A stretch of DNA of 64,000 nt from Thermaerobacter subterraneus DSM 13965 (lineage in GTDB: Bacteria > Bacillota > Sulfobacillia > Thermaerobacterales > Thermaerobacteraceae): contig NZ_JH976535.1 of the NCBI RefSeq assembly GCF_000183545.2, positions 448,840 to 512,839 on the forward strand, read 5' to 3'. Positions 24,655-57,792 of the stretch are shown here, one piece after another. The position numbers and the translations under genes were made by a program. Each line of letters starts with the position of its first letter. Positions within the stretch are counted from its first letter, which is position 1. The notes beneath the pieces were generated by a model that searched no databases, had not been told where the DNA came from, and worked only from the letters and a program-made list of their open reading frames with translations.

Positions 24655-24953
24655 GGCCATGGAGTCCCCCACGCGGGGACCGCAGGTTTGTCCCGCCTTT
24701 TGTGCCGCGTCCCAGGCCGGGCCCCGGGTCGCGTTCCAGGCCGCGCAGGGCGGCCGCGGGCAGGCCCGGGTCGCGGCCCCATGTACCGCTCCCGGGATCC
24801 GCCGCGACTGCGCTTGCAGCACGCCCACCAGGCCCGCTGCGCGATTCCGGGCGCGGCCTGGAACGCCCCGTCGCCAATCCGCCGGCGCTGCCGCCGGAGG
24901 AGGCGGGCGCAGGCGAGCCGGGCGTGCGGTCGGCGCGGCAGGCATGGCGGGTC

Positions 24954-25334
24954 GAGTCAGCCGGGTGATCGCGGGCGCAGGGCCGCAAGGCCGCGTCCGA
25001 GGAAAGTCCGGGCTGCACAGGGCACGGTGCTGGGTAACGCCCAGCGGGGGCGACCCCCGGGAAAGTGCCACAGAAACATACCGCCGGTGGAACCGGCCCG
25101 GCGCGCGGCCCGCACCGCGCGCCGCCGGTCACCGGTAAGGGTGAAAAGGTGCGGTAAGAGCGCACCAGCGGCCAGGCGACTGGCCGGCTAGGCAAACCCC
25201 ACCGGCAGCAAGGCCGAGTAGGAGGGCGATGAGGTGGCCCGCCGAGCCCTCGGGTTGGCCGCTTGAGGCCCCGGGTGACCGGGTGCCCTAGATAGATGAT
25301 CACCCTCGACAGAACCCGGCTTACAGGCTGGCTC
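24954..25334 (+). ncRNA. rnpB: RNase P RNA (bacterial type A-like)
   Basis: Catalytic RNA that matures tRNA 5' ends. Hallmarks in order: GAGGAAAGTCCGGGC near the 5' side, ACAGAAA, GGTAAGAGCGCACC, GAGTAGGAGGGCGATGAGG, AGATAGATGATCACC and ACAGAACCCGGCTTA at the 3' side. The ends are set by helix P1: 24954-24962 (GAGTCAGCC) pairs with 25326-25334 (GGCTGGCTC) through one G-U pair. About 381 nucleotides, the usual size. A terminator follows within 30 bases. Confidence 0.95.
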
Positions 25335-25358
25335 GGCCCCAAGGTTTATAGATGTGGA

Positions 25359-37498: not shown

Positions 37499-37533
37499 GC
37501 GGCAAGGCGGGGCGTGATGCCCCGCCTTGCCGC
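37499..37533. terminator. Bidirectional terminator between mutY and the selenoprotein gene
   Basis: Perfect 15-base arms, 37499-37513 (GCGGCAAGGCGGGGC) and 37519-37533, with a five-base loop. On the minus strand it is followed by TTTGTC. It serves two convergent genes. Confidence 0.85.
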
Positions 37534-37585: not shown

Positions 37586-37831
37586 TTACCAGAGCTCGCC
37601 GATGCGCCTGCGGACCTCGCCCTCTTCGGGGAACCGGCCCGTTTCCGCCTTGTTGTAGACCTCGCGGCCTCCGGCGGTGACGATGAACCGGCCACCCGAA
37701 GAGGGGACCAGGGTCAAGGAGGCGACCCGGTCCGGGTATGCTTCCAGGATCTCTTCCGCCACACGGGCGGCTCGCGGCAGGTACCCTCAAGAGGTGCAGT
37801 ACTCGATGCGGACTTCGATGCGGTCGCTCAT
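37586..37831 (-). CDS. SelW/Rdx-family selenoprotein (TGA codon 15 read as selenocysteine)
   Basis: 81-residue thioredoxin-like redox protein of the Rdx (SelW/SelT/SelH) family. Reading the minus strand from ATG 37831 (ribosome site GGGGAGG just upstream) gives IEVRIEYCTS, then in-frame TGA at 37787-37789, then GYLPRAARVAEEILEAY. The TGA is exactly the fourth position of the family's C-x-x-C/U motif (Cys12, Sec15). The frame then continues through VPSSGGRFIVTAGGREVYN and KAETGRFPEEGEV, the family's conserved C-terminal half, to TAA at 37586. Length and spacing match the family. A hairpin right after the TGA fits a bacterial SECIS. Needs selenocysteine machinery encoded elsewhere; a nonsense mutation is the less likely alternative. 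Confidence 0.85.
37756..37770 (-). promoter_or_regulatory. Candidate bacterial SECIS hairpin
   Basis: On the minus strand, CCGCC (37766-37770) and GGCGG (37756-37760) close a five-base loop CGTGT, 21 bases after the TGA. Bacterial SECIS elements place the apical loop some 16-37 bases after UGA with G among the first two loop bases; both hold. An alternative, longer pairing (CTGCCGC with GTGGCGG) starts 7 bases after the TGA. Confidence 0.6.
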
Positions 37832-38066
37832 CCCGAACCTCCCCTTCACCCGGTTGCCGCATCCGGCTCGCGGTGGTCCCCGGCCACCGGCCGGGCGGCG
37901 CCACCGGACCTCGGCGGGCAGGCACCGGCGGCTGGCCGGCCGGTGCCCGTCCACCTTATGAATACATTACCACTTGCCCCTCCGGCGGTCCCGGCCCCGG
38001 GCCACAAGCCACCGGGTGACAAGCCACCGGTGGAAGGTTCCGGGCCGGCCCGTTACACGACCCCGG

Positions 38067-56335: not shown

Positions 56336-57792
56336 TGCGCCTCTGGATCCGCGGCGGCCGGTTGATCGACCCCAGCCAGGGGCTGGACGGGCCCGGCGAC
56401 CTGGTGATCGCCGGGGGGCGCATCGTCTATGCCGGCCCCCCCTTGCCCGGCGCCCCCGCGGCGGCCCAGGCCGGCAGCAGGCTTCCCGACGCGGGCGCTT
56501 TGGGCGATGGCGCGGCAGCCGGCGGTGGTACCGGGCCAAATCCCGCCGGTGCAGGACTGCAGGTTCTCGATGCCCGGGGGCTCTGGGTGGTGCCCGGGCT
56601 GATCGACCCCCATGTCCACCTGCGCACCCCCGGGGAGACCCACAAGGAGACGCTGGCCACGGGGGGAGCGGCCGCGGCGGCAGGCGGTTTCACCGCGGTG
56701 GCCTGCATGCCCAACACCCGCCCGCCCCTGGACGATGCCATCCGGGTGGAGTGGCTGGCCATGAAGGCGGCGGCCGAGGCTGCCGTGCGGGTCTACGTGG
56801 TCGCCGCCGCCACCCGCGGCCTGGCCGGGGACGAACCCGCCCCCTACGCCGCCCTCAAGGCCGCGGGGGCCGTGGCGGTCAGCGACGACGGCCGGCCCAT
56901 CGCCCGGGCGGGCGTGATGGTCCGGGTGCTGGAAGGGGCCGCGGCCGCCGGGCTGCCCGTGCTGGTCCACGCGGAAGAACCCGAACTCAGCGCCGGCGGC
57001 GCCATGCATGCGGGCGCCGTGGCGGCGGCCGCCGGGATGCCCGGCAGCCCCGCCACCGCCGAAGCGGTGATGGTGGCCCGGGATCTCCTCCTGGCCGAAC
57101 AGGCCGGGGCGCGGCTGCACGTGCTGCACGCCAGCGCGGCCGTCACCCTGGACCTGGTGCGGTGGGGCAAGGCGCGGGGCATCCCCGTGACCGTGGAGGT
57201 CACGCCCCACCACCTGCTGCTCTGCGACGAGGACGTGGCCGCGGCCGGGTTCCACCCCCACTGGAAGATGAACCCGCCCCTGCGCTCCCGCCGGGACCGG
57301 GAAGCCCTCCTGGAGGCGGTGGCCGACGGCACGGTGGACGCCGTCGCCACGGACCACGCGCCGCACCACGGGATGGACAAGGACTGCCCCTTTCCCGAGG
57401 CCGCCTTTGGCGTGGTGGGCCTGGAGACGGCCCTGGGCCTTCTGCTCACCCACCTGGTGCCCCGCCCCCTGTCGCCCGCCCGGCTGGTGGAGCTCATGGC
57501 CGCGGGACCGGCCCGCATCCTGGGCCTTCCGGGCGGCACCTTGCGGCCCGGAGCCCCCGCCGACGTCACCCTGATCGACCCCCAGCGGCGGTGGGTGGTC
57601 GAACCCGAGCGGTTCGCCAGCCTGGGCCGCAACACCCCCTTTGCCGGCTGGACCCTGCGGGGCCGGGCCGTGGGCACCCTGGTCGGGGGGCGGATGGTGT
57701 TCCGCCTGGACGGCGGGCCGGTGCCGGTGCCAGCCGGCGAGACCGCGGCTCAGGAGGCGGCGGGGACCCAGGAGACGGCCGGGATTGTATAA
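56335..57792 (+). CDS. pyrC: Dihydroorotase
   Basis: 485-residue zinc amidohydrolase closing carbamoyl aspartate to dihydroorotate. Metal-site motifs: GLIDPHVHLRTPG, ACMPNTRPPLD, VLVHAEEPEL, LHVLHASA and ATDHAPHHGMDKDCPFPEAAFG, typical of the Gram-positive type-I enzyme. ATG at 56335 overlaps the pyrB stop by one base. About 45 Ala/Gly/Pro residues are inserted near residues 35-75, just before the DARGLWVVPGLID strand. The stop codon lies inside the -10 box of a downstream promoter. Confidence 0.94.
   Translation: MRLWIRGGRLIDPSQGLDGPGDLVIAGGRIVYAGPPLPGAPAAAQAGSRLPDAGALGDGAAAGGGTGPNPAGAGLQVLDARGLWVVPGLIDPHVHLRTPGETHKETLATGGAAAAAGGFTAVACMPNTRPPLDDAIRVEWLAMKAAAEAAVRVYVVAAATRGLAGDEPAPYAALKAAGAVAVSDDGRPIARAGVMVRVLEGAAAAGLPVLVHAEEPELSAGGAMHAGAVAAAAGMPGSPATAEAVMVARDLLLAEQAGARLHVLHASAAVTLDLVRWGKARGIPVTVEVTPHHLLLCDEDVAAAGFHPHWKMNPPLRSRRDREALLEAVADGTVDAVATDHAPHHGMDKDCPFPEAAFGVVGLETALGLLLTHLVPRPLSPARLVELMAAGPARILGLPGGTLRPGAPADVTLIDPQRRWVVEPERFASLGRNTPFAGWTLRGRAVGTLVGGRMVFRLDGGPVPVPAGETAAQEAAGTQETAGIV

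Follow-up and report, generated by a model that had tools for sequence, protein, structure and literature searches.

The selW locus

The window, by which we mean the whole 64,000-nucleotide stretch of Thermaerobacter DNA that was analyzed, carries on its minus strand a gene of the SelW/Rdx family whose reading frame meets a TGA at codon 15. The gene, its internal signals and the elements flanking it are listed here:

37586..37831, minus strand: selW, SelW/Rdx-family gene of 81 codons from ATG to TAA with predicted selenocysteine (Sec) at codon 15; identified by translation and a Pfam Rdx match across the TGA
37787..37789, minus strand: UGA codon, putative Sec, residue 15 (C12-T-S-U15); kept in 5/5 family genomes and aligned with Cys in solved homologues
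37756..37770, minus strand: predicted bSECIS hairpin CCGCC-CGUGU-GGCGG, 5 bp with a 5-nt loop, whose stem begins 16 nt past the UGA; identified by covariation
37765-37761, minus strand: loop of the bSECIS hairpin; its second position (37764) is the conserved G, which is followed by U
37838..37846, minus strand: AAGGGGAGG, ribosome-binding site separated from the ATG by 6 nt; relatives also have a G-rich purine site here
37499..37533, minus strand: perfect 15-bp GC-rich hairpin followed by the T-containing tail TTTGTCATTC; possible terminator shared with the convergent mutY gene

The frame from 37831 to 37586 contains a single stop codon before its TAA, namely the TGA at 37789-37787, and the product, with CTSU at residues 12 to 15, reads MSDRIEVRIEYCTSUGYLPRAARVAEEILEAYPDRVASLTLVPSSGGRFIVTAGGREVYNKAETGRFPEEGEVRRRIGELW. 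When Cys was substituted for Sec, the product scored 84.7 bits against the Pfam Rdx profile (PF10262, cut-off 22.6), 99.9 bits against NCBIfam NF041051 (SelTWH_Campy, cut-off 88) and 67.5 bits against TIGR02174 (CXXU_selWTH, cut-off 34.2). The matches cover residues 6/7 to 77/78 and have the TGA site inside them, which agrees with the original prediction that an 81-residue Rdx protein results if the TGA is read as Sec; family membership is thus obtained above the curated cut-offs, and the frame does continue past the TGA to a normal stop at the coordinates and with the motif that had been given. The TGA was further said to replace the second cysteine of a C-x-x-C/U motif, and this holds, since the solved homologues 2fa8, 2obk and 3dex have Cys (CTQC) aligned with U15. 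No other Rdx gene was found in the Thermaerobacter genome. Because NF041051, a model named “(seleno)protein”, scores above its cut-off, current NCBI annotation may well call the gene.

selW stands alone, with the arginase gene rocF upstream on the same strand and mutY convergent on the other side. When the neighbours were sought by motif in short flanking stretches of the relatives, both were seen in genome G003, only arginase in G001 and only mutY in G002. The ribosome site expected ahead of selW is real and lies at 37846-37838, although by itself the 9-mer pattern of AAGGGGAGG is no rarer than chance within the window. The downstream terminator that had also been proposed fared less well. 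The 15-bp hairpin followed by TTTGTCATTC is there, but G003, the nearest relative, preserves the stem and not the T-run, and therefore the assignment of 37533-37499 as a terminator shared with mutY is only moderately supported. A search for a sigma-70-type promoter upstream of selW found none. Elsewhere in the window, an ordinary RNase P RNA of bacterial class A lies at 24953-25339 on the plus strand.

A conserved hairpin downstream of the UGA codon

The original prediction did not report a SECIS element, and the hairpin described here is an addition to it. A scan of the selW gene region with Rfam gave no SECIS match, and the hairpin was therefore tested by covariation. Among 45 distinct TGA-containing sequences, 97% of the stem cells pair in register; sliding the register by up to six columns leaves no more than 68% paired. 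All 45 have a G as the second loop nucleotide. In an alignment of 30 sequences, 96.7% of the stem cells pair and compensatory double changes are found in four of the five stem pairs. The covariation score is 0.462, whereas shuffles gave 0.156 (sd 0.025) and no slid version exceeded 0.117. The outermost pair (columns 20-34) shows no compensatory changes and fails to pair in 3 of the 30 sequences; the four inner pairs are recovered by RNAalifold unaided. When 57-nt stretches were folded one by one by minimum free energy, the structures disagreed beyond the 5-bp core, and for this reason we restrict our claim to the core.

Two of the five stem pairs join third codon positions, so that a change such as GCC...GCG to GCG...GCC leaves both codons specifying Ala. 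These compensatory changes are synonymous and therefore cannot be explained by conservation of the amino acids, making the selW hairpin a clear case of an RNA signal preserved within a coding sequence. In the six Cys homologues only two to four of the five positions pair, and none has a G at loop position 2. According to a published rule, bacterial SECIS elements have an apical loop of 3-9 nt, a G as its first or second nucleotide and a distance of 16-37 nt from the UGA (PMC13188914); here the loop is 5 nt, the G is at position 2 and the distance is 21 nt. It is also similar to a common hairpin of 5/6 bp that has been described in Epsilonproteobacteria (PMC4607533).

Conservation of the TGA codon and the selenocysteine machinery

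At first sight, a single stop codon within the frame, when only one genome is considered, suggests a decaying pseudogene, in which the TGA would be a nonsense mutation in an ancestral Cys-type Rdx gene. The relatives speak against this. The TGA and the frame are kept in 5/5 family genomes, four from the genus and one other, so that the codon is universal in the close relatives rather than a scattered mutation, and in a survey of the class a selW match was found in 51 of 154 genomes, 50 of which have a match carrying the TGA. For the 66 codons that follow the TGA, comparisons between distinct species of the family gave dN values of 0.04-0.13 and dS values of 0.44-1.07, that is dN/dS ratios of about 0.06-0.23. 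With dN this low relative to dS, the part after the stop must be taken as translated and selected. The conservation of the same-codon TGA, together with the dN/dS ratios, led us to reject the pseudogene, and the purifying selection on both protein and hairpin and the presence of one stop codon only in the frame point in the same direction; we consider such decay to be extremely improbable, and the gene in our view is almost certainly a functional SelW/Rdx-family selenoprotein gene in which UGA codon 15 is decoded as Sec.

A wider scan of bacterial genomes yielded 31 loci, of which a motif search resolved 29, with the site being TGA in 23 and TGC or TGT in 6. Some individual loci deserve mention. 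Two related genomes of the class each have two tandem Rdx genes with one in-frame TGA apiece (G132:C23:6775-7295 and G133:C36:19239-19775). A SelW-like match in another genome (G076:C166:8197-8403) contains two in-frame TGA codons, and this could reflect two Sec residues or a decaying gene.

The original prediction also required SelA, SelB, SelC and SelD elsewhere in the genome, and all four are present. Searching the Thermaerobacter genome (2.89 Mb in two contigs, 99.96% complete) gave SelA at 577 bits, SelB at 313 bits (350 with its C-terminal piece) and SelD at 401 bits, as well as a tRNA-Sec at 82.8 bits (Rfam), which ARAGORN independently called as tRNA-SeC with anticodon tca (UCA). The other high scorers of the tRNA-Sec model that were checked (L014-L016) are tRNA-Ser genes. 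One of these, L015, is a tRNA-Ser(gga), and ARAGORN called another tRNA-Ser(gga), of 101 nt, at positions 57671-57771 (plus strand) of the window, where Rfam does not call one; this is probably a spurious hit in GC-rich sequence. The selD gene (G000:C1:1627908-1628843, minus strand) has an in-frame TGA of its own in the motif GKAG-U-GCKLGP, which we take to be the enzyme’s known Sec/Cys site, and one TGA is found inside selD in each of the four genomes of the genus. selD itself is thus a second selenoprotein gene of the Thermaerobacter genome.

Across the class, selA is present in 46 of the 50 genomes with a TGA-carrying match compared with 59 of the 104 others (Fisher p 5.6e-6, kinship being ignored). 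The four TGA-match genomes where a full selA is absent are all multi-contig assemblies, one having a piece of selA at a contig end and three having none. In G093 and G097, which are 96-97% complete and carry a TGA-type SelW, no selA was detected, and this may be due either to an assembly gap or to a TGA gene without machinery of its own.

The TGA might also be translated as an amino acid other than Sec, either as Trp through reassignment of the code or as Cys through a tRNA-Sec charged with sulphur. The inserted residue cannot be told from sequence alone, and thiophosphate-dependent insertion of Cys at UGA occurs in other organisms, which gives this reading a precedent. It is opposed by the complete Sec pathway of the genome, and for Trp in particular by the non-TGA homologues seen, where the site is Cys and not Trp. 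Moreover, the selW copy of a close relative (L025) ends in TGA, and TGA therefore still serves as a stop codon there; on this ground and that of the full Sec pathway, code reassignment was rejected. Taken as a whole, translation of the TGA as another amino acid appears highly improbable.

Predicted function and relatives of SelW

The gene, its conserved TGA, the machinery, the SECIS covariation, the selection and the fold model were computed directly, and on these data insertion of Sec at the UGA is strongly supported as the predicted decoding event. When the ribosome meets the UGA at codon 15 of the selW mRNA, the SECIS hairpin 16 nt downstream would bind SelB carrying GTP and Sec-tRNA-Sec(UCA), and this complex would insert selenocysteine to give the 81-residue full-length protein instead of a fragment of 14 residues. 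SelA would form Sec on the tRNA, using selenophosphate provided by SelD, here presumably itself a selenoprotein. Decoding of UGA as Sec in bacteria generally competes with release factor 2, and one could imagine that the full-length frame exists while selW acts chiefly as a switch that depends on selenium, with termination at the UGA as the usual outcome. No result of our analysis speaks for such a switch, and there is neither a leader-peptide arrangement nor a controlled downstream gene in the same transcript, the next gene mutY being convergent; we regard the switch as very unlikely and continue with the full-length selenoprotein.

A single-sequence AlphaFold2 model of the product, again with Cys for Sec, has a pLDDT of 94.6 and shows the thioredoxin-like fold of the SelW type. 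In the PDB, crystal structures related to SelW rank first with TM scores of about 0.9, followed by mouse SelW and MIEN1 and then by thioredoxins. The C12-T-S-U15 motif comes after strand 1 (strand 5-12 and helix 18-31 in the model). The predicted order of elements is beta-alpha-beta-beta-beta-alpha, in which C12 and U15 sit where strand 1 ends, ahead of helix 1. By analogy with the family, the product is most likely a small thiol/selenol oxidoreductase using C12-U15, which may cycle through a Cys-Sec selenenylsulfide and be reduced by cellular thiols or thioredoxin; its redox chemistry, partner and substrate are suggested by what the family does.

Bacterial SelW-like selenoproteins were described in 2005-2006 from the Sargasso Sea set and from complete genomes, including that of Symbiobacterium thermophilum, a distant relative of Thermaerobacter (PMC1088965, PMC1794560). 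The Thermaerobacter protein shares with them the CxxU motif, the UGA at the second Cys position, a bacterial SECIS element immediately downstream and a similar length, and differs only in organism and exact sequence. A homologue from a Symbiobacterium MAG has both the TGA and the hairpin and is about 54% identical to Thermaerobacter SelW. For Campylobacter jejuni SelW (CJnc60), ribosome profiling and peptides have demonstrated full-length translation past the UGA (PMC11955535). That protein likewise has 80-81 residues and a UGA decoded by tRNA-Sec, and the SelTWH_Campy model matches the Thermaerobacter protein; the two come from different phyla, and read-through is experimental in C. jejuni, whereas Thermaerobacter SelW is known from its sequence. 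The Cys-type Rdx structures 2fa8, 2obk, 2oka, 3dex and 2p0g share family and fold with the Thermaerobacter protein, at 27-41% identity and a TM of about 0.9, and in the alignments read, those of 2fa8, 2obk and 3dex, Cys replaces Sec. Mammalian selenoprotein W (2npb) has the Rdx family and CxxU in common with the Thermaerobacter protein but is distant (24% identity, TM 0.66), and its SECIS element is of the eukaryotic kind, located in the 3' UTR (PMC1088965), whereas the hairpin described here lies inside the coding sequence. The collection of papers that we searched contained none on Thermaerobacter selenoproteins, its only hit being a study of AMPylation that names Thermaerobacter once, and the text of a 2026 review mentions neither SelW by that name nor Thermaerobacter. 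It is well supported that Thermaerobacter SelW is a new example of an already known class of selenoproteins, and it leaves ideas about selenoproteins unchanged.

The most widespread selenoprotein in Sec-using bacteria is FdhA (PMC1794560). The only Fdh-alpha-like gene found in the Thermaerobacter genome does not reach the family cut-off and lacks an in-frame TGA. It is a tentative and rather doubtful idea that this strictly aerobic thermophile keeps the whole Sec pathway for a minimal selenoproteome of SelD and SelW, which would set it apart from most Sec-using bacteria with their FdhA (PMC1794560). With selW read in this way, a gene that standard callers would truncate at codon 14 is put right, and Thermaerobacter is seen to be an aerobic thermophile that uses Sec and has at least two selenoproteins, SelD and SelW. 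The actual role of SelW is still poorly understood, and the small protein of this thermophile could be a convenient one in which to study it.
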